NCBI GenBank assembly: GCA_963924555.1
Contig: OZ004585.1
Location: forward strand, 2,803,488 to 2,867,487
DNA: 64,000 nucleotides
Origin: Crambe crambe
Taxonomy: Eukaryota > Porifera > Demospongiae > Poecilosclerida > Crambeidae
Direction: 5' to 3'
The position numbers and the translations under genes were made by a program. The notes under the pieces are model-generated. The model made no database searches. It was not told the DNA's origin and saw nothing but the letters and a program-made list of their open reading frames with translations. How positions within the stretch are numbered: the stretch's first letter is position 1; every line of letters starts with the position of its first letter. Shown piece after piece: positions 14,193 to 63,327 of the stretch.

Positions 14193-15084
14193 TTCTGAGA
14201 GAGACTTGAAGATAAGCTTTTTAGGCTGAATCCAGTCAATGTGATAAATCTTTGCCAGAGTTCTGCTTTTATATGTTGCTACAGGAAGTATAATCCATGC
14301 ATGCTAGGTTGACCTCCATGCAAGTGGTCTCTAAGCACAACGTATACTGGAATGGAATGGAATGGAACAATTGAAGTGACCTATGAACTCTTAAGACATT
14401 TTTTACACTTTTTTATACATCCAGATCTAGCTGTGGATAAGTGCATGAAAATAATGTGGTAGCCTCCCTACTTGTCTGTTTTATTTTTAATTATGCATAG
14501 TCCTATCTATTGGGGAGCTACAACTGGTTATTCAATTGTGTATGCTACTCCAGCCACTCCATACTCTACTATCTGGTTTCAGTATGTACTGCATTGAGGG
14601 CTGAAATAGGGTACGGCAATAGCCATATGCCGGAGACTCTGGCCATGAGTGCATGCAAGCGTTATAGGGTTCTCTGGCCCCTCTTTCCGAAAACTCTGGA
14701 TCAGCCCCTGACTCAAGTTTGGGAAAAGAAGAACTTTCTTTTTACTACACTATAAAAGAAGCCGCCTTCAAGTCTCGAAGGTGTTGAGCTTTACTTGAGC
14801 AGGTGAATAGTTGCTAGTCGCTTTTATGAGAGTTGATACACATGAAATCCTTGTTTGGTTACATCATGCAGTTGCATGATTCTTTGCTCTTTAGTACTTA
14901 GCTACCCTTCTAATGATCATTAAGTTGTTTACTGTTTGGAATTAGAAAATCAAGCACGATTTCCTCATATTCAGTGAGGCAGTCATGAAACTCGGTTAAC
15001 CAACTTGAGTGATTTATTTTTTACAGAGTACATTAAACCTCTAGGTATATTTCTTGGTATAGGTTTCATGTCCATAACTTTCTA

Positions 15085-22187: not shown

Positions 22188-22532
22188 GCTTGCAGACTAT
22201 GCCAAAGTTATATCTAGCTAGCTACAATTTCAGCAGACCTCATAAGTAGCCTGAGCTTAGCTTAAATCAATAGCTTGGGGGGGGGGGGTGGGCTTGGAGG
22301 GGGGTGCAGGGAAGTTCCCCAGCCCCCCCTCCCCCCCAAGATTGAAACTTCTGGGTGAAATAGAATCTATGCTGGATTTCAGCACTAGCTATACAGTAGT
22401 CATATTGAAAGTTTTTTTCTTTTCAGTTATTTTTACTGAGCTACCTTTCAGTAACTATACATTTCTACTGTAGTGTATACTGCACAACTATACTGTGTGT
22501 ATTGGGACTTTTCTAGTGTGCATTACACATAC

Positions 22533-30603: not shown

Positions 30604-31317
30604 TTCTGAGAGAGACTTGAAGATAAGCTTTTTAGGCTGAATCCAGTCAACGTGATAAATCTGTGCCAGAGTTCTGCTTTTATATGTTGCTACAGGAAGT
30701 ATAATCCATGCATGCTAGCTTGACCTTTAAGTGGTCTTTAAGCACAACGTATACTGGAATGGAATGGAATGGAACAATTGAAGTGACCTATGAACTCTTA
30801 AGACATTTTTTTACACTTTTTTATACATCCAGATCTAGCTGTGGATAAGTGCATGAAAATAATGTGGTAGCCTCCCTACTTGTCTGTTTTATTTTTATAG
30901 TCCTATCTATTGTGGAGCTACAACAATTATGTATGCTACTCCAGCCACTCCATACTCTACTATCTGGTTTCAGTATGTACTGCATTGAGGGCTGAAATAG
31001 GGTACGGCAATAGCCATATGCTGGAGACTCTGGCCATGAGTGCATGCAAGCGTTATAGGGTTCTCTGGCCCCTCTTTCCGAAAACTCTGGATCAGCCCCT
31101 GACTCAAGTTTGGGAAAAGAAGAACTTACTTTTTATTACACTATAAAAGAAGCCGCCTTCAAGTTTCGAAGGTATTGAGCTTCTCTTGAGCAGGTGAATA
31201 GTTGCTAGTTGCTTTTATGAGAGTTGATACACATGAAATCCTTGTTTGGTTACATCATGCAGTTGCATGATTCTTTGCTCTTTAGTACTTAGCTACCCTT
31301 CTAATGATCTAAGGACT

Positions 31318-42907: not shown

Positions 42908-45900
42908 TCAAGGCCATGTATAGTCCCATACAGGACCACATGTAGTGTTGTTATTAGAATCATATTTTGTCCACATTAGCCTCTTGGCATGAATTATTAA
43001 AGACTCCATTATCTCCAGAGCGATAAAGATATCTTCAGGATGGCCACTGAATATTTCTTGTAGTTTGCGTAGGAGTCGCCGATATGCACCATGAAAAGCT
43101 CTCGACTCAATGTAACAGTTACTGGTTTCTGAAAGAATGGTTGTTACAGTGGGATTGGAACGCATGGGCCAGACCCCACTGGGATCAAATGGTATGGGAG
43201 GACCACTGTAAGCATAGTGAAAATCACTCACTTTGTCCAGGTGCTTCTGACACACTATCTCCTCAAACTTATAGAAATGTGCAAGCGTGTTGCTGCCTAT
43301 TTCATCAGGGTCTAGAATCCCTTCCCCTTCTCCTTGAGAAGTGATGATGTCGATAGCTTCCAGAGCAGAAACCACACTCGTAACTTGAATGATCTTGCCT
43401 ACTGATTTCTCCATACTCCAAGGCCACTGCACTTGCAGATCCACTGTAGATACATTGAAAATCTCATCACCAAACTGTTCTATGCATTTTGTAACTTCAT
43501 CATAAAATGCACCGATAGTCCTCTTTTCATTCAAAATGGGAGGGTTGGCCACAAAACTTCTTTGCGGTACTTCTATCCCCATAAACACCTTGTAAACATG
43601 TTCCAGGGAGAGCTTTTCCAAGCTTACCTTGAGACTAGGTAAGACACCTCCTGGCAGTCCTGTCACAGGATAGGAAGGTGTGGTAGAGGGAGAATCAATG
43701 AGTGGTGATCCATTCACAGCAATGAGTATATTTGCAGCTTGCACCATGTGTAGCATTTCTTGGACAATTACTGTTCTGATCAAATGATATATTTCAGTGT
43801 TGTAGCCATCAATTATAGAGTACAGTGATGTCAAGTAGACTGGTATTGTAACCCACTCAAGTTCAATAGCTGTTTGCAGTTGCCTTTTCAGTTCTGACAT
43901 TGAGCAAGTTTTACTTCCAAGTGGCCGTACAGACAAGTTTGGTAGCTTCTCTTCAGCAGCAACGTATGGCGAATAAGTGAGAATTTCCTTAAAGAAGGCA
44001 TCGTGTTGATAAGGAGCTTCTTGAAAGAGAAGTGCCGAAGCTCTACATCTTGGTGGCACAAAGGATGATGTTATTTCTGGAGCATTGAAAGAAGGGATAG
44101 CAGTTGTTGGTTCTCTGATCCATACATCATATATGGGATCTTCTATCCATTCCAGAATCATCTTTCTCTTTGCAGGAGACAAATCACGTGTTGCTGGCAT
44201 GTAAGAAGGATTATCAAAGTCCAGTCTGAGAGTAAGGTTTAAGAGGTTAAGATTGTCTGACTTTGTTACCTCGTTATAGCTACTCAAGTCTAGAATTTCT
44301 TTCATTGCAGGTGCTATTCGAGCATAAAGCATGAAAATTGGACTCACATCTTTAACCCAAGTATACGGATGAGTGAAAGAAACATCGGCAAAAGCAATTA
44401 AGTAGGTAGAAACATAACTATGGTACTTACACACGTGAGGGTTCACTTTTACGCAATAGTTGAACAAGTATTCTTGATTGTCCATGGGAATTGTTTGTGT
44501 GGTTCTAGAGCCAGTAAAATTGCACATCGGATGGGTGAAGTGGCGAAATGGTGGAATTGTGACACTTGGATTGATACTGAAGGTGAAACCAGCAAGGCCC
44601 TTCTCATCAGTTATAGCACTCCAAGAGTGTGGTATCACTCCAGCATGAGTTGCATTGTACATTACAACATATTCACTTTTATAGTCGCGCTGGGTGTGAA
44701 CTTCCAACCCCTGGACTGGCTCTCCGTACTTGGTAACATACACTGTGTCCCTGCTTTCAGGACGGTTATGTCTATCCAGGAAATGTTTGTTTAAGCCGGT
44801 GGGACGTATATAATACAGCTCCTCTTGGAGTAGGATCTGAACACTCTGCTCAAATTGCAGTGGAAGAAAACTCTCGCTGCAGATAGTGGTATTTCCTTCC
44901 TGAGTATCCAGTACCTGTGCCAAGACCAGAGGATTGCTGGAGACAGTGTGCATGAGAGAAGGGTCCACAGGAATTGTGTATATGCCACTATTGATGGGGA
45001 TATCTTCCATGCGTGTGTAGGAAAGACCTGAGTCCTGTCCAAGAAGGTAGACACATGAATTCTTGAGGATGCCAAGCCTTAGCTTCCCCAAATTGCGTAT
45101 TGAATAAGACATATCGACAGAAAGAGAGTTGCTCAGGTCTAACCTCACCTCATTTCTTGTTTTATCAACTTCAAAGGGTGCTACAAATGTCCATGGATCA
45201 AACAAAGAGAGATCCATTCCATAACAGTTATCATCCCTGTCAAACTTTAGTCCAACAGGCCGATCTTTGATGTACATTGCTCTCTCCCCAGGCACATTTA
45301 GAGTGTCAGATGGGCTTGGTACTCCAATCACGCCTATAATATTGCCGTAAGTGTCATTGGAGGGCAAATAATCTCTTGGGTGATGGAACATAGTTCCTCT
45401 CAATGCAAGAGTACCTTCTCCAACAGCATTCTGTAGCTGATTCAGTACTTCGGAGTCCCTTAAATCGTGCCAGTGAATGTTAGTCACAGTAGTGGTGAAT
45501 TGACTTGAATAGGGATAATGTGTTGACTGAAGAGAGTGTTGCAGATCGTAACACTTCAGCCGTGGCCAAGCAGACTGCCCAATAATGTTAGGACTCCACT
45601 TTCCTCGAAATGCTGGAGAATTATCACTCCAGTGTATTCCTATTTCCATGCCATGAAGAGTAGCAAGATGATTATTACTACTGACTATTTTCGCAAGTGG
45701 GCAATCGATGTTTCCAACAATATATTGACCCACCACACTGTCTCTTAGAGACATAGTGCCATCTTTGTAGTAAACTGACATGACTTTCACATTTACGATC
45801 TCAAGCTCATTTGTCCCATACCTGTCATAGTCCATATCTATTATATCAGGGTTTAAAGGCTCGTTCATGCGGTAATTGCAATAGTCATTGTTTGTGGTGC

Positions 45901-45960
45901 TAGCATCAGCACGGTACTCTCCAGCGAAGTGAATCCGAGGGTAGCCCAGGTAGGAAGCCA
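42908..45960 (-). CDS. VioB/RebD-like protein with ferritin-like domain
   Basis: One open frame of about 1016 codons, the length of bacterial VioB/RebD/StaD, which couple two tryptophan-derived imines (iminophenyl-pyruvate/chromopyrrolate-type dimer synthases). The N-terminus, YPRIHFAGEYRADASTTNND, matches the start of that family. The C-terminal third has the ferritin-like helices: QLQTAIELEWVTIPVYLTSL near residue 690, then VQEMLHMVQAANILIAVNGS near 735, with Glu and Glu-x2-His ligand-type residues. The frame has no ATG. The first codon in phase is GTG, and CATTTAGCAG directly before TGGCTTCC is a good splice acceptor. A short upstream exon therefore probably supplies the start (A joined to TG would make ATG). 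So the gene is spliced and belongs to the host, not to a bacterial contaminant. Substrate in animals is unknown. Confidence 0.8.
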
Positions 45961-46132
45961 CTGCTAAATGGAACCTAGGTGAGATAAGGGAATAGCATGT
46001 CTAAATTCAGAGATGAGCATGGGTGAAACCTGAGTTTCTTTTTATGGATCACTTCACTAGTATATGTAAAGTTTAAAGTGCAACTTTGAAAGTATGGCAG
46101 CACAGCTCTATGTAGGGATGGTGACGGCAACC

Positions 46133-46150
46133 AGAGTGCTACTGCACTCT
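46133..46150. repeat. Dispersed 22-bp palindrome, copy 5 (shorter)
   Basis: AGAGTGC / GCACTCT around TACT, in reverse orientation; on the minus strand it is again preceded by ATC. Adjacent GTAGGGATGG at 46112 recalls the GCAGGGATG next to copy 4. Confidence 0.55.
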
Positions 46151-46462
46151 CTGATTATTATTATATTACAAAATGTCGATTTTATGAATTGCTTTCTTGA
46201 AGCGTGTTTTGAATTTTCTGTACTTTTCTTTCTCCTCTATGGTGATGTATAGACTCACTCTAGTTGCTTGAGAACCTGTGTCTCAGACAAAGAAGAAGAA
46301 TTTTTGAGTTTATACTGACTTATGACCTTTGACCCCATTACATGAGTGTGCTGATGTTTATGCCGCCTGTGAACATTGAAATCACCTCAGCTAACGTATA
46401 CAATATTCGGATGTTAAAGGCCTATATAAATGGTATCGGAAGGTCCTGAAGCATTGTGCGAT

Positions 46463-46612
46463 GGCTTTGTATGAACATAATGTGTCATGTAACTATGTAG
46501 CTTTGTATGAACACAATGTCATGTAACTATGTAGCTTTGTATGAACATAATGTGTCATGTAACTATGTAGCTTTGTTTGTATGAACACAATGTCATGTAA
46601 CTATGTAGCTTT
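46463..46612. repeat. Tandem repeat, 33-40-bp unit, four copies
   Basis: The unit GCTTTGTATGAACATAATGTGTCATGTAACTATGTA alternates with a shorter form lacking GTG (ACACAATGTCATG), so units differ in length in an alternating way. Confidence 0.85.
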
Positions 46613-47574
46613 CTTATACATAGCTACAACTGGCAGACTTATTACAGTCTGAAAACTGCACGCTGTTTTATCATTCCATTATTAGCAAGGAGCGACATAT
46701 TATAGCTATTATAAATTCAACCAATAGCTAGCTACTTACCCCAAGAATATGCAGAGAATTATCAGCATCAGACACTGCATGCATACAGACATCATTGTTA
46801 CCAAACAATTATACCTTCAGCAGTCATTCCAAAATTTAATGCTGGCAATTGCATATAGCTACTATAGCTACCTGTGGTCTAGCTATTATACTAGCTATAG
46901 CTATACCATCTCTAAAGGAAGCCTTGTGGCTTCATGACCATTGTATACTTGCATGGACATCTTTCACTTCCCAAATACTGGTAAGAAACTTGCCTGTGAA
47001 TTCCAAGCAAACATACCAAAGTCTTTGTTAAAGTGAAGTACGTAGCTATTGTGTTAGTATTGCATGATTGTAAAAATCTATTGATTATGTGATACTTCCT
47101 AAAAATCAATAGGCAAACAACAAACTGTCCATTGAATGAATCTTTAATGCTGGAGAGTGTTTGGAGGAAGTGAATGTTTATTAATTTTGTATAGCTAGTA
47201 TAGTGTGGTGGCAGAATGGATCTGGCAATTCACCTTTAGACAGTAAGACTCCACCGAATCTAAATAGTCATTATGTGCCCATCAATAATCCAGTAGCTAC
47301 ATACTATCTCATGCTCATTGCTGCCACCAACTTAGAAGAGACATTGGACTTGCAGCAAAAATGTGCTGAATACAATAGAGTGAGGCTCTAATAGAGAGGC
47401 GGAGGTCAAAATAGCTGCAGTTGGGAAATTAGCAAATTGCATGGTTGTAATAGTGTAGTGGTCTCATAATTATTATGGTCAGACAGGACAGGCTTCACAG
47501 TGGACCATAAAGAAGAATCTTACAATGAGTTTGCAGTTCCTGCATGACAATGCAAACATAGCTAGCTAGCTACC

Positions 47575-48125
47575 TAAAATTAATGAGGTCACATCTCTGA
47601 AGAGGGTCAAAAGTCATGAGGAATAATAATATATATTACTTTAATGTAGCTATGCATATTTTTATATATTCACCAGAATTAGCTAAACATCACAGAATTA
47701 AAACAGTAGCTACAGGAAGTACCACCATGCTTAGCTATAGCTAAGTTACATAGCAATAGAAAGCTACCATTATTAGTAGCTTGCTATAACAACTTGCCTA
47801 TACAGATTTGCATGGACTTACATATTATATTACAGTGTTATTATTCGTGCAAACTGCATGCTAGTAGCTAGTTAGGACATAATAGCTATAGCTACTCACC
47901 CCAGGAGAATTATTAACATCAGACACTGCATCTTGCACCAACCACAATCAATTTTTGAATTATTACAGCTCTAAGTCTGTGGTCTTCATGTGACCAGTAA
48001 ACAAAGCAAGTTATGGTTTTGTGGCTTCATGACCATTGTATTACTTGCATGGACATCTGCCATTATACAGCATGCATAATTATTATACCACTTGCACTCA
48101 GTTTGAAGCAGAATAACAAGGCTCT
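47575..48125. repeat. Dispersed repeat shared with 17.9-19.0 kb
   Basis: 47575-47730 is the reverse complement of 17897-18062 (shares AATGAGGTCACATCTCTGAA). 47730-48125 runs in the same direction as 18655-19035 (shares AAACTGCATGCTAGTAGCTA). The two halves are adjacent here but about 600 bp apart there. Confidence 0.65.
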
Positions 48126-49420
48126 GTGATAAAGGACCTACTTCAAAGGGCAATTAGCTACTAATAATCCCTACGAGTACTATCCTGTATCACTCCTTTG
48201 AAGGGGGACAAAAGGCTGGTCCCAAAATGTGACTTAAATACGAGTTGGCTGCTGCACAATTATGGCTATATAGTTCCTAATAACTCTCATCACTCTAGTT
48301 AGGATCTACAGTGGAGATGAAGGCCAGTTCACAATGGAAGTTAATGGAGAGGGCTGGAAACGGAATGGTATTGTGAGTTTTTATAAATTAATATTACCAA
48401 GACGGTGAATATGAAATGACTCACTATGGTCACAATTATACGTTCATTGCAAGATATTAATTTTTGTGGTAGCTACCACCTAAAAATTAATTTGAATAGA
48501 CTTTAACTAGCACAACATAAGCCTGAAATTCTACCCTAAACCATATATACCACAGACTGATTGGAAACACAATATCACGAAATTGCCCGACCACTCCCAT
48601 GTCCACATTAATAAAGAAAGAAATAAAAGTGTGCAGCCATTGATCCTTCCTTCGGTTTCTTCTTCATCTCTACACCATCTTATTCTCTGCCCAAACTATG
48701 AGTGAAGATGCTGGAGCCTCTCTCTCAGTTGATCATTCCGAAGAATATAATTATATTCTCATCATTGAGCTTTTTCTTGGCAAGGGAATACACACATTTG
48801 AAAAGCATAGGTGGAGGACATGAATGTTATGAATATAAATCAGGGAACAGCTTACCTTTTCAAAAGAGGTATACACAAAGACACACCCATGCAGCTAATG
48901 TATGGCTAAAGCTGTTGAATACATGAAAAATCCACTATATACATTTTAAGTACCTATAGGGCATGAAGTAGGGTGTGTACTAAACTCTAAAACTGTAATT
49001 TGCAAACTTGGTCTTTCATGTAGCTAAGGGGATATAATATTATAGAGGTAGCTACACAAAGTCAAAACAGGCTAAAGCTGGCTGGTATGGCTGTCTTAGC
49101 AGCAAAAATTGTGTTTTTTTTTCATGAGTAAGGTAGCTATGCTGTGGATGGATTTACCTAAGGACTGTTGATTGGTTTCTCATTATATGTCCAGTCTATC
49201 CTCCAGAAATTAAAGCAATTAGCTATCACACTTCACAAATTTTCTTGTAGGTAGGTACATAGCTAGCTACCTGCAATTTTCTCCAATCTTTTTGTACATG
49301 CAGTAGCTAGAATTCCTACAACAGAATTTCATACAACAAGCAATTTAGCTAGTTTTAAAAGTTACGTACATAGCTATTATAATTCGAAACTTAATTCGGC
49401 TCATAAAACTTGATCGAGTT

Positions 49421-50680
49421 TCAGAATATTTCCCCAAGCTTTGAGTTCACATGCATAATTTCATTTTTCATATCAGGCTTGGAAGGCTCTTTCACAAATC
49501 GAACATTGACACCACGCTCGAAAACAAGGCAGTGGGAGGAGCCACCATAATGAAACATTCCAATTTCATCGCCTTTCTTTACCTTTTCTCCTACTTTTGC
49601 AGTAATGTCACAACTAGAGACCTCTGTCAATCCAATTCCCACAAATACAATCATACCAATGAGAGGGTTATCTGCTTGGATAAAAATCAAGCACCTGGTG
49701 GCCATGGAAGAGACGTAGCACTGCGAATAAGCAAGTAAAACTGCATGATAACCTTCTGGCAGACACACAGCAAAGTAAGATCCATCTACATTGTAGGCTT
49801 TGACAATCGTTCCGTCTATTGGGCTATGCCAGTGATGATAGCTGAATTGATTGAGAAAACCCTGATAAACTGTGCCACCTATGAATCTATCAGTGAGAGA
49901 ATCACCTGCTAGCATGAAGCCAAGACAGTATGGCTGCTCCTTGATCCAGAACGTCTCACGAAACTGAACATCCCTCCTGACAACCAAGGGAGATGCCTCA
50001 CAGGCATTGATAATTACATTGTCTCCGGTCACAATTGGACGAGCATTTTCCTTCAATTTCCTAACAAAAAAATCATCCCAAGAAGTGAATCCCCAGTGAG
50101 GGAGTTCAGGATCACACACGTAAGTTTCCTTGAAGCCAGGCATTAATCTCATAGCCTCTTCACACAGCCACCCATTATCCGTGTTTAGAACATCTCGTGA
50201 GTTGGGTGACTTGAGATACATGCACCACACATTAAGAATCTTTTTGAAGGTTTGATTGACCTTATCATTCTTGAAAGCATTGTGTCCTGCAGGCGTCAAC
50301 ATGAGATGTAAGAACATGGCTGCCAGTGGAATACCGACTAGCTCTGATGAATAAAATGGTGGAGCCATTGTTAAAGTGAAATTTAATAGACGAAGCAACA
50401 CATCATGATTCGGTATCTGTTGATGCTCCAGTGGAACTTGAGTGAACATAAGGGTGAAAGACTCAAAGATTTTAGGATCTGTCTCAATAAGTACCTTTAA
50501 CTCCTGGAGTGAGGAATGAAGGGGAAATAAATCGTATGCATTTTGTTCAATGTTGGCTATTTCCTTCATGTCATCTGTTTTGTAGACTTGAAGAATGAGT
50601 CGGTTCAGGAACCTGTCCACAGCAGCTGGATCTTTTGGAAGCCAACCACCAAACTGACATGCAGTGAATCCATCTGTCAT
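49421..50680 (-). CDS. PsiD-like phosphatidylserine-decarboxylase-family enzyme
   Basis: Intact single-exon frame of 419 residues from ATG. Residues 1-150 match the N-terminal helical domain (PSDC type) found in fungal PsiD-like enzymes. From about 200 the catalytic PS-decarboxylase domain runs: WDDFFVRKLKENARPI, HHWHSPIDGTIVKAYNVDG, TRCLIFIQADNPLIGMIVFV, EVSSCDI. The self-cleavage motif GGSSHCLVF lies near residue 383; in this family the Ser becomes the pyruvoyl cofactor. No mitochondrial presequence or membrane anchor is seen, unlike housekeeping PSD. Family members of this shape decarboxylate free amino acids such as tryptophan; that substrate is inferred, not shown. It lies 3.5 kb upstream of the VioB-like gene on the same strand. 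Confidence 0.88.
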   Translation of the reverse strand: MTDGFTACQFGGWLPKDPAAVDRFLNRLILQVYKTDDMKEIANIEQNAYDLFPLHSSLQELKVLIETDPKIFESFTLMFTQVPLEHQQIPNHDVLLRLLNFTLTMAPPFYSSELVGIPLAAMFLHLMLTPAGHNAFKNDKVNQTFKKILNVWCMYLKSPNSRDVLNTDNGWLCEEAMRLMPGFKETYVCDPELPHWGFTSWDDFFVRKLKENARPIVTGDNVIINACEASPLVVRRDVQFRETFWIKEQPYCLGFMLAGDSLTDRFIGGTVYQGFLNQFSYHHWHSPIDGTIVKAYNVDGSYFAVCLPEGYHAVLLAYSQCYVSSMATRCLIFIQADNPLIGMIVFVGIGLTEVSSCDITAKVGEKVKKGDEIGMFHYGGSSHCLVFERGVNVRFVKEPSKPDMKNEIMHVNSKLGEIF

Positions 50681-50776
50681 TTTTGCGTATATAGCTAAAA
50701 GAGCTAACTGTACGTAGCTGATTTACTTTCCAGCAAGCAAGCAAATATAAACATAAGAAATGTAGCTAAAGTGACT

Positions 50777-50983
50777 GTCTTGATGTCCAACAATGACGGG
50801 TCTTAAAATTTACTTTGTTCAATAGGTAACTTGCATGCCCAAACCTATATAGCTATAATTAGCTATGTGACAGTCACGGGTAGGAATCGTGCACGACTGT
50901 CAGATAATAGGTTCTTAGGTTTGGGGAAATTACATATTGAATAAAGTAACTTTTAAGACCCATCTATTGTTGAACATCAAGAC
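50777..50983. mobile_element. MITE with inverted ends
   Basis: GTCTTGATGTCCAACAATGA and GGGTCTTAAAA with TTACTTTGTTCAATA return inverted at 50936-50983. An inner GTGACAGTCAC / GACTGTCAGA pair sits in the middle. Confidence 0.75.
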
Positions 50984-51623
50984 ATTATGCTTTAATTGAT
51001 GCAATTCTTGTCATGTGTTCTACACCAAATTTCAGCCCTATAAGACCACTAGTAGCTATAGTCATGAGTTAATATGAAAATGTGGCCAAAAATGAATGTG
51101 TCTAATACAGGAGATATACTCTTAAGCATCTCAAGTGATTTTTTGGAGTTCCTTAACACACCAATCAGATACACCTCTAACTAAGTGAACAATAATTTAA
51201 TATGTGATAGTTACAGGTAAAAATCAAAATAGCTACTTTTACTTGTTTTATCTAGATTAATATTATTACTGTAGCTACATCATTTTTTTTTCCTACTTGG
51301 TAGCTATAGCAATGCAAAGTTATTGTTTTTTATTTTTGTTTTTGTTTTTGTTTTTCAAGTGCAACCGACATACCAATTTGGTATACATCTTACATGTAAG
51401 TCGAGTTGGCTGACTTAGCTAATTTCATCAGAAAAATTGCCCATCTCTGAATTCTTCTGGCTGGCCGGCAGAGAACTTTGCTTAGTATTGTCAATGGCTT
51501 ATGATCTGTCACTCACGTGATAGAGGAAGTCCTATAGCATATGCAAGACTTGCAGCTCTATCCATCTCTAGAGGATCAGGAATACAAAATTCTAAGCTAG
51601 GGCCGTCATCAAACTTTTATTAT

Positions 51624-51820
51624 AGTCTATTTGCACTCACCTTGCCCCCTGATCATTCACTATAACTGCTATAACTTTCTCAATTTCTTTATCAACTTTC
51701 AGAGCTGATTATCCACTCTCTCTGTTGGTGTTTGAAATTTGAAATTTGGATAAAAATTGAGAAAGTTGTAGCAACTATAGTGAATGATCAAGGGGCAATT
51801 TTTATGAATCCAAATAGGCT
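51624..51820. mobile_element. MITE with inverted ends
   Basis: TCTATTTG, CCCCCTGATCATTCACTATA and TATAACTTTCTCAATTT on the left return inverted at 51757-51820 (AAATTGAGAAAGTTGTAGCA, ATAGTGAATGATCAAGGGGC, CAAATAG). Confidence 0.75.
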
Positions 51821-52697
51821 TTAGCATTCATGTGGTACTAGCTACTGACTACTCCTCAGAATTATATTGCAGAAGAGTGGAGCTTTTACTTTCTCAATGA
51901 AATACGTGGTGGATATTAGTTTCTTCCCACTAGAGTGGAACCAAACCTCATCCCCTTTGCATGGTTATGTGCGAAAAATATCTGGCAGAATCATGGAACA
52001 TGACAGCAGTGTCCATCACTCTCAGTATGTAAAGTGCAAAGATCCAACTAGCTAGAGGGAAGCAGATGTGAAAAACACATACATAGCTATATAGCTGGCA
52101 TGAGAAGAAACCCAAATAAAGGAAGCCGAAAAGACAGCATTTGTTGGCAGATAGCTATAGCTACTAGGAATGGCTCACTGGAAGGTCCAAAAAATTCACT
52201 AACAACATCACCCCTTACCATCACCTAAACATTCAACTAGCTACTCCTAAAGGGAAAGAATAATCTAGTATAATTATATAGTTTATGAAGTATGGTAATG
52301 TGTATTCAGAGCTGAGAACTACCTGAGGCACTGAATTTATAGTGCTACCAGTGTTAACAGTTGAATTGACTAACTTTCGTCACTAGTAGCTAGGTAGCTA
52401 AGAAATTCTACATAGGCTTAATCTCTGATATCTTGCACCATAATATATTTACGTAGCTACACCTGAAAGCGTGCAAAACATCATTCATGGGATCAATGGA
52501 TCGTTTGTGACCACAAGATGAGCATTCTACATTGCAGTCTGACAACCAACTTGCAAATTACAGTAGTCATTTCTTGGGAACTATGTAGCAAACGAACTCA
52601 CTGCCAACTTACTGAAGATTTATATTACTTCAGGAAGAGAGTTTGGAACATTTTGCATGTAATGAACAGAAGTGTTGTTTTTTTTTGTGTGTGTTTA

Positions 52698-52705
52698 GCC
52701 CCCCC

Positions 52706-52736
<31 letters not shown>

Positions 52737-52738
52737 AA
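52698..52738. repeat. Poly-C then poly-A run
   Basis: About 28 C followed by 12 A. Similar C runs occur at 58443-58457 and 61231-61261; the poly-G at 11418 is the same on the other strand. Confidence 0.85.
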
Positions 52739-52937
52739 GACAAACTGGCTGGTATTGCTACATGTAATTAATGGAAATTATAATACGTAGCTACATATAT
52801 CCTTTGTACTTGTTTTATATCTTAGTCATTGAATGACAACTAACTATGAGAGATGAGGCAAATAAGACACTAGCTAGCACCACATGAATGCTTATACAAA
52901 AGTTTGGTGACAGCCCTAGCTTAGGAAGTGGTGCATT

Positions 52938-53124
52938 TTGTATTCCTGATCCCCTAGGGATGGATAGAAGTCTTGGATGTGCTGTAGGACCTCTTCTATA
53001 CTCCCGTCCATGCAAATATTCTCTTGTTGTTCAGTTGGGTGGGTTCAAAGTACTATTCATTTCTGTTGGAGACTCCCTCCCCTGTGAGCCAAAGATCGAC
53101 TCCTCCTTGTGTCACCATGCTACC
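52938..53124 (+). pseudogene. Fragment of the SLC18B1-like transporter
   Basis: Matches the last visible part of the transporter at 62938-63220: intron end TGTATTCCTGATCCCCTAG, exon start GGATGGATAGA, then the next acceptor TTGTTCAG with TTGGGTGGGTTCAAAGTA. Parts of the exon and intron between them are deleted. Because intron sequence is included, it is a DNA-level duplicate and not a retrocopy. It lies between the decarboxylase and the methyltransferase. Confidence 0.85.
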
Positions 53125-53508
53125 CCATAAATTTTAAATCTGATCTAAGTCAAAATGTTAATTGAATTTGCATAGTTAGCTATTTTGTAGAGAAGTAGGG
53201 TGGGCTCCAGGAGTTCATGGTTGGGGGGCATACATACCAACCATCCAGATTTCCCTGGATTATTAAGGGATTGGGTATCAAATCCAGACATGCAAGGAAA
53301 CAACAGAAAAATCCAGGGAACATTCATCATTATGCCTACGTAGGTGCTCTTTAATGGGTTAGATAATGGCTATATACATTACCAGATTCTGCCTCGAAAT
53401 CTATGTTTGCATGTACGTATCCAACATAACATCATAACAATTTCATCCAGGGATAATATTAATATTAATATTATTATGAATATTATTATATCAGGGACAA
53501 AAATCATA

Positions 53509-54801
53509 CTATGCATGACTCATCTTTTCAGCAAGAATCATGTGCAAATGAGTGAAATCAGATTCATTGCTTTCTGTAGGATCATCAGCAGAGGATGTAT
53601 AGATGCTTTCTTTCTTGATCATGAGCCCAGCTTCGGTCAATGATTCTCTGTGCTGTTCTTTGGTAAGTAATTGTGATGGAATAATTTGAGTATCTACTCT
53701 GTAGAAGGTCATCCCTAACATAGTTCCTATGATCAAATGTCCCCCAGGTTTTAGGACCTGTACAAGTCTCTTCATGTTGGCTTTGAAACCTTCAAAATCA
53801 CTAGAAACACAGTTTTCCAAACATAAGGTTGTAATTATGACATCAAACGGCTGATTACAATGCTTGGAAATGACCGGCTCTTTCAGTACATCACAAGGAA
53901 TAACATCTTTTGTGGCTGATCGAGCTCTTTTTTCAAGTGCTTCCCAATCAGATTCTCTAGAATTTAACGATGATAATAAATTATCAACTTACTGCAAGTT
54001 GACTTCAAATTATTGGACCCGATGGGAAAAAATATTAGGTGCACCTTGAATTGAGCACAACAAAGCATTTACTCAATATCAGTATAAAGAGGTGAAGTTG
54101 TCAGTTCTTCATATGACATGAATATTTTATTGGTGGCTAGGATATCTATACGTAGGTGAATGCACCATGATAATATACACACCAATTTCAAGCTTTGAAT
54201 GCAAGGACATTAAATTTACTATGCAATCCCCTTTGCAAGCTTAAAATAATGTGTCTTGATCCCAGTTTGTATGTACTAGAGATTGTAGCTTTTACTATTT
54301 GCTACTTACTTCTTTCCCTCAAGCACAGCAACATATTTAAAGAACACACCCCAGTCAAATTTGTGCTCATCATTCGAGACCCATTTCTTCACTTGGTTCC
54401 TGTTTGCCTCTGTGTACTCTGCACAGATGATGTTCTTGAACTTAGCACTGGCACTGATGTTGGCATGAATAGTTGGTCCTGTTCCAAAAATCAGTGACGA
54501 TTCTCCAGCGGGAACTATATTATGAGGAACAATTCAACCATTATTATTCCGTAGCTATACTAAAAATTAGAGAGCTGAAGCACTGCAAAAGGTTGATTAT
54601 ATATTTTATAGCTATGTAGTTTCAAAATAGCAGGTAGGCTGATTTTACTTAGCTACTGTGTGTACTTTCTTGCAGGTATTCATGTAATTTATTCAAAATA
54701 AACTCCATCAATAAAGGCTCCTCGTCTGGTTTCTTATTCAAATAGGAATAGAAGATCTGTAGGTATTTCTTTGCATCAAAAGTTCGCGTGCTGTCCTCCA
54801 T
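53509..54801 (-). CDS. NNMT/PNMT/INMT-family small-molecule N-methyltransferase, 3 exons
   Basis: Exons 54801-54666, 54514-54310 and 53956-53509. Splice sites and phases agree and give 789 bp, 262 residues, the usual length of this family. The N-terminus MEDSTRTFDAKKYLQIFYSY fits the family's helical lid. Exon 2 gives the SAM-binding motif GESSLIFGTGPTIHANIS and the acidic AEYTEANRNQVKKW, followed by FDWGVFFKYVAVLEG. Exon 3 gives VIPCDV, DVIITTLCLENC and LKPGGHLIIGTMLG. The acceptor TTCTAG at 53957 was chosen because an acceptor 45 bp upstream breaks the frame. Known relatives methylate nicotinamide, phenylethanolamine, indolethylamine or thioethers; which one applies cannot be read from sequence. 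Expected to be cytosolic. Confidence 0.88.
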
Positions 54802-57800
54802 AGCTAACTTGCACTAAGTTTTTTTTTAAATGAAGCAGACAAGGCCTCTGTATTTAATGGCCCTTGTTAACAATAATTATTATGTTGCACTTGTTGGAGC
54901 TATATTTAGAAAGTTAAAAATAACACCAGTAGCTATGCATTTAAAATTTGACAGTTCCTATAGCTAACATTCAGTCCTTTGTCGTTCTTTTGTCGTTCTT
55001 CTATTGATTTTTAGGAAGTTCCCAATAATCACTCACCTGCACATCCAGCTATAACAGAGAAGGGCATGCATGCATGCAGGAAGCTTTAATTAAATGTCTA
55101 GGCTGAGGGTCTATACTACATGTATTAACAAAGCAAATCCATCCCAATTGTGTTTTTATTTTTGGTCCTTGCTCTAAATAAGAGATCTTCATGCGAGCCC
55201 TTAGTTGTGCCCTCACTATGCTTAGGAACTTAGGGTTTAAGACAGTGAGACCTAGGGTTCTAACTAAGTTATTTAGAGACCCAATGGATCTGGGGTGCAG
55301 TATCTGAGCTTGGATGTGCGTTTCTATCTCTCTCCCCAAGGTTCTATAGCTACTGTATTATTGATTGCACAAAAAATGACTATAGCTAAGTTGCTACTAC
55401 ATAGGGTAATAATTAAGAGTTTCTAAAGAAGGGTTAAACAACAATATACACCGATCGAATTCGAAATAGTGAAGAATGTACCCAATGTTCTGGGACCATA
55501 ATATTTATACAAGCAGAAACGTGAAACATCACTAGCATATAACACATCATACCAAGATTGACTGGGGTCTCTCAAACACCATGTTCATACATAGTCATTA
55601 CCTGATGGACAAACCCTTAGGAGGAACCACAAATATTTATCCAGGACCACATAAAAAAGGAGTCACTCTGATAGCGAAGTAGACTTTGACAGTGGGGATG
55701 AATGCCATGATTATGAACCCAACAGCAGAACCAGATAAATCCTGGAACCTCGAATGAGTCTGAGCCTAGAACTCCAGTCATAAATGATCCTGAACCAACT
55801 GATGGTAATCACCTTGAATATGAAACATTGTGTCGATCAACTAGAGTAACTGGAAAACCAGATGAGTACGGTGACGCACTATATTATTTCTGAGCACCGT
55901 TGTACCAAACAGCCAGCTTATCCCCTATTGAAAGGGGGATGTAACATTAACTTTATCATCAATCATTACATCACCACATGCAGATCACATGATTCAATTC
56001 ATGCCATGCTTAGGACGCCAAAACGGAAGAGTGCCACTTTTTAAGACGGCTGATTTAAATGAAAAGGTACAGTGATAGAGGCTAGAAAGCATAGAAATAA
56101 TTTATAGTGTGCAGAGAATTGTGTACATGTATGTTGAGGTGCTATTGGTTAAAAGTAATTGTCAGGGCATCAGAGAGAGTCAATTTTTGGTGTGTGTGTG
56201 ACACAATTGGTGTAGACTTATAGAGTGACGAGAGAACAGATTGGTGACTACTGATGGTAGTTGAGAGCGAGACGATAGTGTTTAAAAGCTATCTTATTAC
56301 AATTTGTCTACTTCAGTATGTATGATGTGAATCAGATCATAAGCACCTTCATCTGGTGGTCTGTTAGGGTTTAGGGTTCAATCTAGCACTGTCCACAGAC
56401 TATGGGTAGCATGAGAAATTCAGCAGTCTATAGCTGATAATACACCTACAACCCTACATGCACTACAAGTGTGTGGTTGAAAAGCTAGGTATATACCCCA
56501 AGAATGATAATTCTGAAAAGTTTATCACTGATGCATGAGAAAAAATTTTACCCTACCATCTCTTATTTCTAGGTATAACTCAGTGTAAATTGAGAAAGAC
56601 CTCGGCAACATGAGGAAGAAGGAGTGTCCTATACTGCTGTAGCTTATTGGCAACATACATGGCAGTTATAAGGACCTCTCTGGCAAGTTCTAAGGTAGTG
56701 GCTATCTCTCTTCATAAAGTCACATTATTTTTCAAATCAGGTTTATCCTGCTGATGCTGTTGTTTCCGGGATAATACTGTGGACTGGTGATATACTACTG
56801 CTGTTCAGCTGTTGGGCTAGAGGTGTGAGAGTACCGAGGCTGCTTCTATCCACACACACACACACACGATGGTTTCATGAAGTGACCCTTGGGCCACTCT
56901 TTGCTGGAAGTCATGTCTATTTTTCTGATATTATATACACTACTGTTACTACTAAAAACTGGTAATGGTTATTTTGTCAACAATAATGTGTTAGTACAAA
57001 AAAATAACGGTAATGGTTGATTATTTACATACCTTTATAGTGTTAAAATCACTTCCATAGAAAACGACGCAGTCTACATCGCTGACTGGTCAGACAAAAC
57101 CAGAAAGCTGTCCGAATGTCCACCAAAACAAGCTCTAGGAACTAAGCACCTTCACTCAACCGTTAGTGCGCCGAAACGGAAGAGTGCCACTTTTTGGCAG
57201 CTGCACTCTAAACTAGGTTTTGGACGTTTTGTGGAGTGCAGCAAGCGATCAGTAGGTGCTGTATTTTTAGAACATCGCTTTTTTGCTACTACTGAGCTTT
57301 CTTTGTATGCTACCACTGTTTGCAAGGATTAACAAGCTTCAGCTTTTGCGGTAGAGCTAAAAATTTGCAGTGGGTACAAACTAAGAAAATTTCATTTCTT
57401 GTGGTGTGCGTTAATTGGGGGAAATTAAAATTAAACTGCACGTTTAATTGAGTTTCAGGGACAGTTGCGGTCCGCCTGAAAATTAGCACCATGATTATAG
57501 ACAGCATGTAATGTGGCATGTTTGGTAAACCACAAAATTATAATGATAAAATAAATAACTTTGCAGCTAAGCAATAAGGTAGTATGGGTAGCTTTGGCAA
57601 CTACACTGAGACATCAGGAATTCTTCCGAAGACGAATACAGGAGTGCCTTCATCTGTGTGTGTGTGGGGAGAGAGAGAAATTATGGAATATCAACTATTA
57701 CTAAATTACACAGGAAACACTCTCACTTACACTGGTAAAACACCCAGGTCCATGTGGACAATGTGGCTTATGTAAGAGGAACACATACACCACCCATCAG

Positions 57801-58538
57801 ACTTGGAAGGATGATGTTCAGAAAAAGTTATCGGAAATTTCTACAATTCCACTGAACAAGTTGGGGAGTACAACAAGTTGAATAGTGGCTACATAATTAA
57901 CTAACTTGAAACAGCAGACCTCTCCCGTTAGCTAAGATGTGACTATAGACAGTGTGCATCATTTAGAAGACTGCTCAAAACAATTTAGCTAATAATAATG
58001 TACATGTACAGAACTGCACATTACAGGTATTTTATTAGTCTGTACACTCTGGTCTTGCAAAATATAGTAGACTTCCAGCCACCTTTAGGGCTGTGGACTC
58101 ACTTTAGGGAACCCTGGATATGCCCTGAACACAGGGGTGGCCTCATTTCAGGGTTCCTGGTACCATGTGATAAGCGATGAACATCATATTAACGACTCTT
58201 ACTGTAGGTGTGTGTGCAGTGATGGCGGAGTACATGGCAAAAAGCAACAACCATATCAGACCGCACCTGAGAGCAGGTCAAAGGGTATACATCAGTGGAA
58301 ACGAAGAACGCACAGGATACTCCGGCTGACACCCTAGTGTGGTTACATGCTTACTCAAGATTCGGGAAAAATGTTTTAGTGATCTCCCCTGACACAGACT
58401 CTAGAAAAAACGGTAGTCATCAAAATTAATGCTTTGGGGAAGCCCCCCCCCCCCCCCAAGTACCTTGACCTTACTGCATTGCAAAGGGCAATAAACTCAG
58501 TGTCACAGTGATCTTTCCTTAGTGACAACTGACAAAAG
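54802..58538. other. Transposon debris, no intact gene
   Basis: Contains the LTR remnant below. The words CGGAAGAGTGCCACTTTTT at 56024 and again at 57178 mark a shared repeat. The minus frame at 55049-55339 is not recognisable, and short (AC)n lies near 56855. Confidence 0.45.
55560..56350 (+). mobile_element. LTR-retrotransposon 3' end, remnant
   Basis: A + frame ending about 55893 reads RSTRVTGKPDEYG, like the basic tail after an integrase. 45 bp later a purine run AAAGGGGG precedes TGTAAC at 55937, the expected polypurine tract and LTR start. The presumed LTR runs to roughly 56350, and its 3' end is not clear. Upstream frames are broken. Confidence 0.4.
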
Positions 58539-59140
58539 ATGCAAAATCATCAGATCAGTGTACACACGAATGCTCCTGAAACTCTTTCAAGAAAAGTTTT
58601 ATATGTGGCACAACTTCACTACCAGGAAGTCCAGCAGACAGACGATGGATTCCTAGTAGGGTCTATTTCAAAAAAAGTCTGTTCTGCTTTTGATACAAAA
58701 GAGACCCCTCATTCGTACTACCTCTCTCTTATTAAGGACCCTATAGATGCACAAACACGGCATGAGCAATGGATAGCAGCAATTAGGGATGCTACATGGG
58801 AGAGAACATATTTCGAAGAAAGTTCAGTTGCATCTCTTGACGCACTTTGTTACCATTTCAAAAGAGGTTTAACTATTGGAGTCAGGCTATTTCTGCTGAA
58901 ATGAATACATTACCAGTAACAAAATGTGGATGGGAAGTGAATGGAAGTCAACTGCAAGTGGGATTCGGCTCAAAACATAGCTGAGGTGAAGAAACGTGTT
59001 CATTACCTCTTGAAAGGTTGCAATTGTAAAAAATCACAATGCCTCAATGGAAGATGCAAGTGCTACAGCAATGACAACACTTGCAGACCAGGGTGCAACA
59101 AGGTACATACCATTTGTATACTCAGTCTATCCATCATTAT
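58539..59140 (+). pseudogene. CXC (tesmin/TSO1-like) repeat-family gene, frameshifted
   Basis: The first frame (58539-58904) contains HEQWIAAIRDATWERTYFEE and LDALCYHFKR. The protein then moves one frame near 58865 (RFNYWSQAISAEMN, LPVTKCGWEVNG) and again near 58965 to WDSAQNIAEVKKRV. A CXC-type zinc region follows, GCNCKKSQCLNGRCKCYSND then CRPGC. I associate such endings with multi-copy, transposon-linked genes in animal genomes. Confidence 0.55.
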
Positions 59141-60213
59141 AGACAGAGAAAATTGAAACTGAAATCATAACTATGGCTGACATATTTCACCAATTTCTTC
59201 TCCATAATAGCTAGCCTATTCACAGTGAATTGTATGTAATGATTCTCTTATACTTGCCTCATATACTTGCTCAAATCTGTCACCAGTCTCTGCCACACTT
59301 TATCTATGCTGCCACACTGTACCCTACAAAATACACCATGTTTCAGGCATCCTATTGCAGCAAGGAAAAGTCTGTCAGGAACTATATTTATTCAAGCAAT
59401 ACTACAGGGCAAGCTCACTCTAAAAGCAAGCTGGCTAAGCCGTAAATTCTGGCTGGACAAAATGAGCACAAGTCTCCCATACCAACTTACCACGTGGTCC
59501 ATCTTTATATCCCTTCTGGTAAATGATCAATATTTATCATGTACTTGTTCTATCATAGTTCCTTTTAAATGTATGGTAGTTTAAGAAGTCTTCTTACCCT
59601 CAAACAGAAAGTTATAGGCGATAAAAAATCAAGTCCCAATCGCGCCATTTTGAAAAAAAAAAATTTTTTCTTGCTGATTTCAGCGTTTTGGGGAGTTTTG
59701 TATTACGGTCAATACGAAATTGATGACGCCACAGAACGTGGAACTAGCTAACTACTGCTATTTAACGAGGCGCTCGCGCGCGCGATCCCGGATTTTAGTA
59801 GGCGGGACCGGGACGGGACAGAACATCCCGCGCTTCCCGGATTTTACAGCGGTTTTCCAAAATCTTGCAACTGCAGAAAGCGAGTCACATGATCGATATG
59901 AGCAATCTGACCAACCAGTTCGCTCCAATCACTTCCGCTTTCCACTTTCCTGTTGCAAGGTTTTGGAAAACCGCTGTAGTAGGCGGGACATCCCGCGCTT
60001 GTCCCGTCCCGTCCCGGATTTTAGTAACAACCGCTATAGCTATATAGGTGGCGACGAAGATTTCGTCGCCGCGACCCAGCGGCAAAATAAACTGTTAACA
60101 AGCAGGATATCCTTGGAAGCTCACTCGCCCAATAACTGTACACAAGTGATTCCTAACAATAATTATTATAAAGGCAGCATAGCTATAATATAGTTAGAAG
60201 GCTACAGCCAATA
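59141..60213. other. Spacer and 5' flank of the transporter gene
   Basis: Holds the GC-rich inverted repeat at 59785-60028 and a short ATTTCGTCG hairpin near 60050. The promoter of the transporter should lie here. No other gene supported. Confidence 0.45.
59785..60028. mobile_element. GC-rich inverted-repeat element
   Basis: ACAGCGGTTTTCCAAAATCT at 59846 returns inverted at 59958-59978, with outer CCCGGATTTTAGTA and GGCGGGAC blocks on both sides. It stands out by GC content and lies about 190 bp upstream of the transporter ATG. Confidence 0.6.
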
Positions 60214-61230
60214 ATGGAAAGTGAAGATAAAACTGAAAACATACCACTACTGCAAATAAATCAAGCAGAAGAAGACTTGGACAGTAATTGTGACAAAAAT
60301 CTAAATGATAATAGACCAGCAGCAGAGCAGGACTTGGACACTAATCATGACAAAAAATATACTGGACCAACAGATAATGGACCAGCAGCAGAGCAGGACT
60401 TGGACATTAATCATGACAAAAAATATACTGGACCAACAGATAATGGACCAGCAGCAGAGCAGGACTTGGACACTAATCATGACAAAAAATATCATACTGG
60501 ACCAACAGCAGAGGAAGACTTGGAGAGTAAGAAAAGGTTCTTGGGCACTAGATTTTCCTAACCTGTAGCTACCTATTCCCATAGAACAGCTAAGTCAGTA
60601 ATAGCTATGATATATACATACTCTAATACATGCATGTACTCCAAACAACAGTGCTGATCAGCTCTCTCTAGTGTGGAGCCTCATGTATGTAGACATCTGC
60701 TTTGGAGGTGGTACGAGGTACTAGCTACAGATAGTTATATATTGCCTCAATTGCTGTTATCATGAACCCAAGGGGATGATATACTATAGCTATAGCCAAG
60801 CAAATTAACTGTATTACTATTGTGCATGGTTATTTTTGTTCCTTGCATGAATACCATGCATGTTCTAAACACTTTGATGGGATCAAAGTAATTTAGAGAC
60901 CCTATTGGTGTCATGACTCGAGTGCACTTGCATGGGACCAAGTGCATGGGACACACTAGCTTATAAACCAAAGGCGGATCCAGATGGGAGGAATGGGGGC
61001 GATTGCCCCCCTATAGAAATGGGTGTGGCATTTTATCCACAAGCTGAATGACTTTCAAAAACCTTAATATAATTATAGCTATAGCTTTAAGCCAACTCTA
61101 GGTTTCCAAAAGTATGGCATTTTTTGCTTTGCAGATGTGCTTCCCTCCCTCCCTCCCACACCCACCCCCAAGCTTGCCAGCCCACAGCCTAATTAACAGC
61201 CACATGATCATCAATTTCTCCAAAGTTGCC

Positions 61231-61261
<31 letters not shown>

Positions 61262-63327
61262 TTCTCAAAATCCTGGATCCACCACTATAAAACACTGAAT
61301 GGCCATGCAGGTGTTGCACAGTCATGCATGCATGTCCTTTTTGCAGATCATGTGAAAGAGAAATGGAGAAGGGCTGCAACATTTATTTGTCTGTGGCTGA
61401 CATACTTGATGTGCAGCATGGCATATTCCTTACTTGCTCCTTTCTTTCCTGCAGAGGTACAGCTAGAAACAGGAGCACATTAATTATTATAGCTAGCTAC
61501 ATTGAAGCATGACATGATACTATTTTGGTAGGTATGTAACTAGCTAATGTGTATCAGTAGCAGTTAGCTACTTTACAACCCTTTAGGCACTACTGTTAAG
61601 TAACTGTAAGTTCTTAAGAACAGTCTTATAGCCATTATGGATACTCAATAGTTCCAGTAGGATTTTCATTGGTATAACCCTTTGGAATCAGTCTTATAGA
61701 ATTAATGCTGAGCTAAATCTCATCACATTATGTGTAGCTATGACCAAACTAATTCAGTTAACTAATAGTCTATGTATGTTCATTATTACAGGTTAAGAAG
61801 AAAGGGTTTAGTTCTTTCTGGACAGGTGTGATTGTGGGATGTGCTCCTTTGTCTGTTGTGTTCCTCTCTCCACTATTTGGCTACATTGTAATTAGTACAA
61901 TAATTATACTCTACCCATTTCCCTGTATACCTGCCAAAAATTGTTCTTTTTGTTGTTTCAGCTTCCTTTATTTAGAGGAGTGAAGTGCATGATGTTTTCA
62001 GGTTTAGTGATCATTGGTGGCGCATACATCTCACTAAGGTATGGTGCTCATGTGGAGTGAAGGAAGTGTAGAATTAAGACATTAACATGCACTGAATTAT
62101 TACCTTAATAAACGGGTATTAATTTTGGCGATCATTAGCGAGCATACAATAAACTCTACCCTCTAATGAATATAGTTAGCTTTACTTTATAATAGAAGAA
62201 ATGCAAAAAATCACTACGTGTAAATAATAAGGTAATCAATAATTAAGCACATTATTTCAGAAGTGACTCCTACTGTTAGCAAGCACATGTAGCTATGTGT
62301 ATGTGTTACAGTGGATTTACGCTCCATTCAAATATTCCGTACACGGAAAGTGTAAGCTTTATGCGTGCATACATTTATATTGAAAAATAAGGCCAATTAA
62401 GGCATAAGCTTCCCGTGTACGGCATATAAATCCACTGTATCAAGCTTATAAGTTTATATACTACTTAAGAGTCACTTCAGAATAATTCAGTGTTAATGTC
62501 TTCATTCTAAGGCTTCCTTCACTCCTTCTTTCTCTGCCTGCTACTGTACACAATTAATCAGTATGTTAGTTTTTCAGATCTGCTTCCCTCCAGTTGGATC
62601 TTTGTGCTGTACGCTAGCATAGCGAGAGTGATTGAAGGGGTAGGCACTGGTATGTTCACTACTGCCATCTTCTCAATCCTGCCAGATCTTTTCCCCAACT
62701 CAGTTGCAACAATCATGGTATGGCAAAAGGGGAGGGAACACAGAAAAAAAAAACAAATAATAATCATGTTATCTGAGATACAGTTTTATGTCACATTGAT
62801 AAACTTTTGTGCTGAATTAACAAACTGTTATGCTGTTATGTTATTTTAACATAAAAATATGATGATGCATCTCATTGATTCACTCTAGTGTCTGTAGAGC
62901 AATATAGCCACCACAGCACACACAATAATTTTTTTTGTATTCCTGATCCTCTAGGGATGGATAGAGGTTGCTGGAAGTCTTGGATATGCTATAGGACCTC
63001 CTATTGGGGGAGTCCTCTATCACGTGAGTGAATCTTATGCTTGCGACTTCCTCTATACTCCTGCATGTCCATGTGAATATTCTCTCTTTGTTCAGTTGGG
63101 TGGGTTCAAAGTACCATTCATTTCTGTTGGAGTATTGGTGTTGATACTTGCCCTCCCCTGTGTCTTGCTGATTAAGAAAAAAAAAGAGCTAAAAGGTTAA
63201 CTCCTCCTTGTGCAGTCACCTTGTTATATAAAGTATGTGTGTTATCATACAGATTCTTCCAAAAAATCTACCATTTCTTGTAAGATTCTCCTCTCAGTGT
63301 TCACTGATCTCGTGTTTATCCTACTAG
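60214..63327 (+). CDS. SLC18B1-like vesicular amine transporter (MFS), 3' end beyond window
   Basis: Exons 60214-60526, 61347-61456, 61792-61887, 61962-62038, 62594-62717, 62955-63023, 63096-63195 and 63253-63327, with GT/AG sites and matching phases, give 321 residues. An unusual acidic N-terminus (residues 1-105) carries 22-residue repeats. Then come TM1 (FICLWLTYLMCSMAYSLLAP with FFPAE), TM2 (WTGVIVGCAPLSVVFLSPLF with G), TM3 (MMFSGLVIIGGAYISL), TM4 (ASIARVIEGVGTGMFTTAIF), TM5 (GWIEVAGSLGYAIGPPIGGV) and TM6 (VPFISVGVLVLILALPCVLL), the N-half of a 12-TM protein. The LAPFFP, SPLFG, R-x2-EGxGTG and GPPxGG motifs fit SLC18-type H+/amine antiporters, closest by memory to the polyamine member. 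The 63253 exon (ILLSVFTDLVFILL) would be TM7. A small exon may be missing in the 62039-62593 intron. Confidence 0.8.
60318..60510 (+). repeat. 66-bp in-frame tandem repeat in the transporter N-terminus
   Basis: Three units encode PAAEQDLDTNHDKKYTGPTD with small changes, plus a shorter flanking relative on each side. All changes keep the frame, so the array is translated as an acidic, probably disordered cytosolic tail. Confidence 0.85.
60584..61346. other. Intron 1 of the transporter
   Basis: Contains a poly-C run at 61231-61261, within CTCCAAAGTTGCCTCCCC and TCTCAAAATCCTGGATCCACC, words typical of an inserted dispersed repeat. No exon seen. Confidence 0.45.
62054..62525. mobile_element. Nested inverted-repeat element in a transporter intron
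   Basis: GGAGTGAAGGAAGTGTAGAA and GACATTAACATGCACTGAAT at 62054-62100 return inverted at 62477-62525. Inside lies a second pair at 62308-62438 (ACAGTGGATTTA, CCGTACACGG, GTAAGCTTTATGC). This is either one element inserted in another or a single compound MITE. Confidence 0.75.

Follow-up and report, generated by a model that had tools for sequence, protein, structure and literature searches.

A probably secreted VioB-like protein and its gene neighbours in the sponge Crambe crambe

VioB acts as the cytosolic partner of an amino-acid oxidase, and we take the VioB/RebD-like proteins with a PF12902 domain to share a ligand pattern of six residues (E, ExxH, E, E, H). Two further elements are already in print, as far as the available text of the two sources goes: bacterial-type PSD genes in a sponge, three of which were reported as putative transfers in Amphimedon queenslandica (PMC4784904), and biosynthetic gene bundles of sponges, such as the oro bundle, five proteins of which were tested (PMC12833800). 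Here, we analysed a window of 64,000 nucleotides (the whole stretch considered, C8:2803488-2867487, contig OZ004585.1) from the 143 Mb genome of the sponge Crambe crambe, which is assembled in 119 contigs. It carries genes for a VioB-like protein, a PSDC/PsiD-like decarboxylase, an NNMT-family methyltransferase and an SLC18B1-like transporter, which a preliminary description had combined into a single pathway for a tryptophan-derived compound. We consider it rather probable that the four sponge genes are functional, work separately and adjoin by chance, rather than forming one dedicated pathway. The most unusual of the four is the VioB-like gene, which is of bacterial ancestry, codes for a probably secreted protein and is related to a pigment-making enzyme.

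Gene models were built by hand from splice signals and reading frames and represent predicted structures (Table 1). Frames, exon models and domain matches bore out that four genes with intact frames lie where the preliminary description had placed them, and its family calls hold (ferritin-like PF12902 of the VioB type, PSDC decarboxylase, NNMT-family methyltransferase and SLC18B1-like transporter). As to the extents, the positions were right and two genes turned out to be longer, the VioB-like gene by an added upstream exon and the transporter gene by a stretch reaching 66710. The added exon (46795-46740) joins position 45974 across an intron of 765 bases with the frame kept, and its leader MMSVCMQCLMLIILCIFLG, judged by eye to be a probable signal peptide, runs on as FHLAVA in exon 2, followed by SYLGYPR. 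In the window's own protein (P0001), a beta-rich N-terminal part (residues ~1-610) precedes a ferritin-like part (~683-1013). When P0001 was aligned with 49 homologues, at least 12 residues stood before the N-terminal pattern in 18 of the 50 rows and 15 rows started within 12 residues of it, while the 17 rows left unmatched start later or differ there. Clear hydrophobic leaders among those 18 rows were present in P0037, P0039, P0013 and P0048, the last of which, like the decarboxylase homologue P0074, carries the name of A. queenslandica. A leader is visible in part of the aligned set only, and most of the aligned rows look like gene calls made without introns. Thirteen of the 15 cysteines are kept in 43-50 aligned rows and C28 in all rows present (36/36), C87 being kept in just one of 44. 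Because of the upstream signal-peptide exon the VioB-like protein is probably secreted, and because of the probable signal peptide together with 14 widely kept cysteines it should leave the cytosol. Its compartment is probably another one than that of the decarboxylase.

The PF12902 domain of the window protein scores above the family cut-off, and a genome-wide search returned three PF12902 genes in this sponge. Residues of the ferritin type (P0001 numbering) are kept in nearly all rows present at the respective position, namely E702 in 47/47, E735 in 45/47, H738 in 47/47, E797 in 45/47, E878 in 42/42 and H895 in 42/44. These six presumed metal ligands, nearly invariant in the rows that cover them, fit the pattern that we assume for the VioB/RebD-like proteins, the likeness to RebD being presumed. 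Both in these residues and in the order of the N-terminal and the ferritin-like part, the window protein is like the VioB/RebD-type proteins (TIGR04492, 3hl1). It is unlike them in its score with the VioB equivalog TIGR04492 (17 bits, E 0.00095, versus a cut-off of 1250 bits), in its probable secretion and in that no partner oxidase was found: LodA_N had no match in the sponge genome and no amino-acid oxidase was present among the window open reading frames (ORFs) scanned, flavin-type oxidases not having been searched genome-wide. This comparison bears on the full tryptophan scheme, in which the VioB-like protein would couple two indole-pyruvate imines and the PsiD-, INMT- and SLC18-type proteins would act on tryptamine. 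Domain, order of parts and ferritin-type residues are all in its favour; however, the low equivalog score, the probable signal peptide with the kept cysteines and the missing oxidase are not what it predicts, and we give it very little credence. The protein would most likely be a secreted di-metal oxidoreductase, whose ancestor was most probably a bacterial VioB-like protein in which a beta-rich N-terminal part had been combined with a ferritin-like one.

One scan of GTDB genomes returned 15 loci with VioB-like relatives, five of them with both parts (Amycolatopsis, an Acidimicrobiia bacterium and three Streptomyces) and ten in which the N-terminal part was matched. The long N-terminal part, with an SYLxxPR start and a YMPxTRDLS-type segment, is common to the window protein and these relatives, which match TIGR04492 only weakly (26.7 bits for L035, 10.3 for L037, 6.6 for L041 and none for L036). 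Against the 15 cysteines of the window protein, the three full-length bacterial relatives aligned have 5, 6 and 5. Profiles of the surroundings of two full-length relatives showed, next to L037 of Streptomyces, a GoxB/LodB-type maturase-like gene and an oxidase of the LodA/GoxA type that has a haem-oxygenase-like domain. Near L035 of Amycolatopsis they showed a flavin halogenase and an adenylation-carrier protein, at a distance of 2.6-5.7 kb; all these neighbours score below the NCBIfam equivalog cut-offs, and the adenylation domain alone passes its own domain cut-off. PF12902 was found in 80 of 245 genomes of the order of the L037 host, many times in open frames of ~360-460 aa, and in fungi, too, PF12902 genes occur close to lodA/lodB-like genes, according to the available text of PMC4417212.

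Other features of the bacterial loci concern the gene for the N-terminal part. In five of the 11 loci with ORFs listed (L042, L043, L045, L046 and L047) it is directly followed by a gene for a protein of 500-532 aa, which is preceded in L042 by two N-terminal-part genes in tandem. A segment resembling '..LxGFxIxG..' lies near the start of this protein in four of the five loci, and the L042 protein has no Pfam match. In L046, a short ORF (13354-13719) located 2.5 kb from the N-terminal-part gene shows a partial PF12902 match of 20.1 bits, below the cut-off of 22.3, which suggests that the two VioB-like parts can be separate genes.

Since the VioB-like and the PSDC gene are separated by 2.6 kb and both families have many bacterial members, the two might have arrived as one bacterial operon and stayed neighbours. 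However, PSDC was found in none of seven bacterial genomes that carry VioB-like relatives (the five having both parts and two having the N-terminal part), in a search run without a positive control although with the same family model that matched in the sponge genome, and tblastn against the 15 loci, each extended by flanks of at most 10 kb, left the decarboxylase, the methyltransferase and the transporter all unmatched. A joint bacterial origin is therefore unlikely, and, as other copies of both families lie apart in the sponge genome and the window PSDC gene is placed as a derived branch inside a group with other sponge rows, we regard it as very improbable.

The decarboxylase combines the PSDC and PS_Dcarbxylase domains with the self-cleavage segment FHYGGSSH, and its best solved relative is the L-tryptophan decarboxylase 8x4q (E 7e-64). 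As a label, 'L-tryptophan decarboxylase PsiD-like domain-containing' refers to a domain and not to a proven activity. A tree was built from 59 rows: P0052, which represents the window protein and differs from it in two residues, 53 of the 119 other homologues, three paralogue rows and two PDB rows taken over from alignments in print. P0052 fell into a group of six rows (100/99) within one of eight (99/96); the C12 copy and the Amphimedon protein were placed elsewhere. The fungal PsiD row, whose branch is 3.09 changes per column long, stands beside this eight-row group (80/70), with bootstrap unsettled; both the best solved relative and, weakly, this position are in line with the tryptophan scheme. 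Judged from domains and tree, the enzyme belongs to a bacterial-type PSDC family and is a derived branch within a PSDC group that includes sponge rows. A housekeeping PSD was considered and rejected, as the protein carries the PSDC domain and groups among PSDC proteins; this outcome, which would have spoken against the preliminary description, did not occur. The sponge genome contains three PSDC genes, which may or may not correspond to the three PSD genes of A. queenslandica described in the accessible part of PMC4784904. Like the PSDC/PsiD-type proteins 8x4q and 9jer, the window enzyme has both domains and the GGSS segment; unlike them, its clade, which keeps FHYGGSSH-type processing segments, is without a C-terminal GQxP segment. 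The latter is common to the C12, C10, Amphimedon, Cellulomonas and Myxococcaceae rows (HGQTPGL in C12, RGQEPSL in C10 and HGQVPGL in a Cellulomonas row). The enzyme would most likely self-cleave between the two serines of GGSS (GGS-S), yielding a pyruvoyl group, and act in the cytosol on an amino acid or serine-type substrate. Five matches to the PLP decarboxylases PF00282, which include the aromatic ones and are not limited to them, were found in the sponge genome, and therefore the PSDC enzyme may not be needed for aromatic amines. A further PSD-like ORF (C44:22302-22892, L004), with a hydrophobic stretch near its start, no PSDC match and a very long branch, lies on a contig of 23.5 kb and is possibly a contaminant.

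The methyltransferase of 262 aa, encoded by three exons, has the PF01234 domain and the S-adenosylmethionine (SAM) segment, and its best solved relatives are NNMT (2i62, E 8.6e-32), INMT (2a14, E 9.3e-28) and PNMT (E 1.2e-24). It resembles these three in PF01234 and in the GxGPT, FDW and LEG segments and differs from them at the Asp of MVDAL, presumably the substrate-binding Asp197 of human NNMT: MVDAL of 2i62 aligns with IGTML, and the Asp is also absent from six other copies aligned from the sponge genome, which holds at least 14 NNMT-family exon matches over about nine loci. Its expected reaction would be the methylation of a small amine or N-heterocycle, with SAM as the donor.

The transporter gene has 15 exons (60214-66710) coding for 522 aa with no internal stop, and its end lies 2.7 kb past the window. 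Besides MFS_1 (E 1.1e-38), the protein matches SLC18B1 (9d7u) with an E of 9.6e-48 over residues 125-519, the best value among the solved SLC18 members and far stronger than that of VMAT2 (E 1.6e-11). Thus, the carrier is not a sugar carrier, in agreement with the preliminary description, and by these matches appears nearest to SLC18B1, of the polyamine type, and not to the monoamine carriers. In the text available from PMC6927659, SLC18B1 is a polyamine transporter in mice. The window protein shares MFS_1 with it and is unlike it in a repeated acidic N-terminal tail and in its many genome relatives. At least 57 SLC18B1-like exon matches were counted in the genome, 14 in the gene itself, 31 on C3, seven on C19 and five elsewhere; those on C3 (8.84-9.05 Mb) and C19 (5.77-5.79 Mb) form arrays, an expansion of polyamine-type vesicular carriers. 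As a proton antiporter, it may fill vesicles with polyamine-like cations. Of the broken transporter copy described earlier within the cluster, the exon pieces are present, and they amount to just a few fragments of 58-84 bp (Table 1). Beyond the window, matches to Sulfotransfer_5 at window coordinates 74393-75220 (L021) and 73980-74261 (C8:2877467-2877748) apparently represent two tandem genes ~7 kb past the transporter, with more on C8 near 3.84-3.85 Mb and on C11. Sulfation by these neighbours would fit a bundle.

Table 1. Annotated features, with positions counted from the first nucleotide of the window.
Feature	Position	Strand	Remarks
VioB-like ORF	42908-46000	-	PF12902, E 2.3e-49
VioB-like gene, exon 1, probable signal peptide MMSVCMQCLMLIILCIFLG	46740-46795	-	GTAAG donor, CCTAG acceptor
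VioB-like gene, exon 2	42908-45974	-	beta-rich N-terminal and C-terminal ferritin-like parts
PSDC/PsiD-like pyruvoyl-type decarboxylase, 419 aa, one open frame	49421-50680	-	PF12588, E 2.5e-35; PF02666, E 5e-34
Transporter fragment, around start of exon 6 (62933-63002)	51524-51589	-	89% identical
Transporter fragment, exon 5 region (62561-62635)	52012-52082	-	75% identical
Transporter fragments, exon 6 and 7 region	52936-53071 (52936-52993, 52988-53071)	+	match 62933-63000 (81%) and 63045-63132 (86%)
NNMT-family methyltransferase, exon 3 and stop	53509-53956	-	PF01234, E 9.5e-22
NNMT-family methyltransferase, exon 2 (GTGPT segment)	54310-54514	-	GT..AG borders
NNMT-family methyltransferase, exon 1	54666-54801	-	GT..AG borders
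SLC18B1-like transporter, exons 1-4	60214-60526, 61347-61456, 61792-61887, 61962-62038	+	splice model
SLC18B1-like transporter, exons 5-8	62570-62717, 62955-63023, 63096-63195, 63253-63327	+	splice model
SLC18B1-like transporter, exons 9-15	past 64000, to 66710	+	splice model

The replaced NNMT Asp and a carrier nearest SLC18B1 count further against the tryptophan scheme, and together with the probable signal peptide, the failed VioB equivalog test and the distance of at least 415 kb between other pairs of the families among the matches listed, they mean that the single tryptophan-derived pathway of the preliminary description does not follow. Several observations nevertheless weigh against four genes that work separately. 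The VioB-like gene and those for the decarboxylase and the methyltransferase follow one another on the same strand, with no stop-to-stop frame of more than 107 aa in either gap, in a scan that could miss a gene made of very short exons. For families set beforehand, 1.7e-6 VioB/PSDC/NNMT triples would be expected within 11.9 kb (calculated with 3 VioB, 3 PSDC and 9 NNMT loci), the four families having in fact been picked after seeing the window. The loss of GQxP in the decarboxylase clade fits a new function, and sponge genomes hold loose biosynthetic bundles, as described in the available text of PMC12833800. With the carrier gene coming next to the other three, these observations point to a true sponge amine bundle, in which the decarboxylase would form an amine, not necessarily from tryptophan, the methyltransferase would methylate it, the SLC18B1-like carrier would bring it into vesicles for storage and, once released, it might be oxidised by the secreted VioB-like protein. 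However, 0.3-0.8 runs of three biosynthetic-type genes per genome would be expected after the fact, given assumed totals of 15,000-40,000 genes and the 2.7% of sponge genes that passed the biosynthetic filter in the available text of PMC12833800. Moreover, no second place with two of the four families together was found genome-wide, the next pair being 415 kb apart among the matches listed (lower bounds for NNMT and SLC18), and the relatives of the carrier form arrays. On balance, we consider such an amine bundle unlikely.

Compared with oro, the window is alike in that small-molecule-type enzymes lie close together in a sponge. Yet oro, as presented in the available text of PMC12833800, is conserved across producers, was tested in vitro and consists of animal-type enzymes, whereas the window includes two bacterial-type genes. 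The main text of that paper contains none of the words 'transporter', 'tryptophan', 'ferritin' and 'phosphatidylserine', and no paper on the present gene set was found in a search of titles and abstract beginnings that left most subscription journals outside. A mixed bundle of two acquired bacterial and two animal proteins, with a methylated amine, its packing into vesicles and extracellular oxidation or coupling by the VioB-like protein, seems to us improbable. Its members would be a neofunctionalised, pyruvoyl-type decarboxylase, an NNMT-type methyltransferase, an SLC18B1-type carrier and a secreted, di-metal VioB-like enzyme. Four separately working genes that adjoin by chance remain our preferred explanation.

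Elsewhere in the window, ORFs at 3420-6227 resemble, by eye, a DNA transposon with THAP-type and exonuclease-type parts. Two near-identical ORFs of 553 and 564 aa with many hydrophobic stretches (9261-10922 and 20502-22196) lie ~10 kb apart as a recent local duplication, the second having no Pfam match. At 13414-14278 and 29800-30714, there are one intact ORF of 304 aa without Pfam match and one copy split across two frames.

The probably secreted, cysteine-rich family of VioB-like proteins is the part that was not found in print: no paper on a sponge VioB-like protein came up among the titles and abstract beginnings covered, most subscription journals lying outside the search, and the main text of PMC4784904 contains neither 'VioB' nor 'ferritin', that of PMC13342648 neither 'ferritin' nor 'violacein'. 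If true, a bundle would mean that animal and acquired bacterial genes serve a single amine pathway, including storage in vesicles, in animals that have no neurons, and in its mixed form would bring extracellular VioB-type coupling chemistry to an animal. The main point of interest, more than the cluster, is the VioB-like family, seen in this genome, in A. queenslandica and in 48 further aligned sequences. It builds on an enzyme of the bacterial natural-product type, the presumed metal site of which is preserved, and may be a source of oxidative or defensive chemistry made by the host itself, in animals whose compounds are frequently attributed to symbionts.

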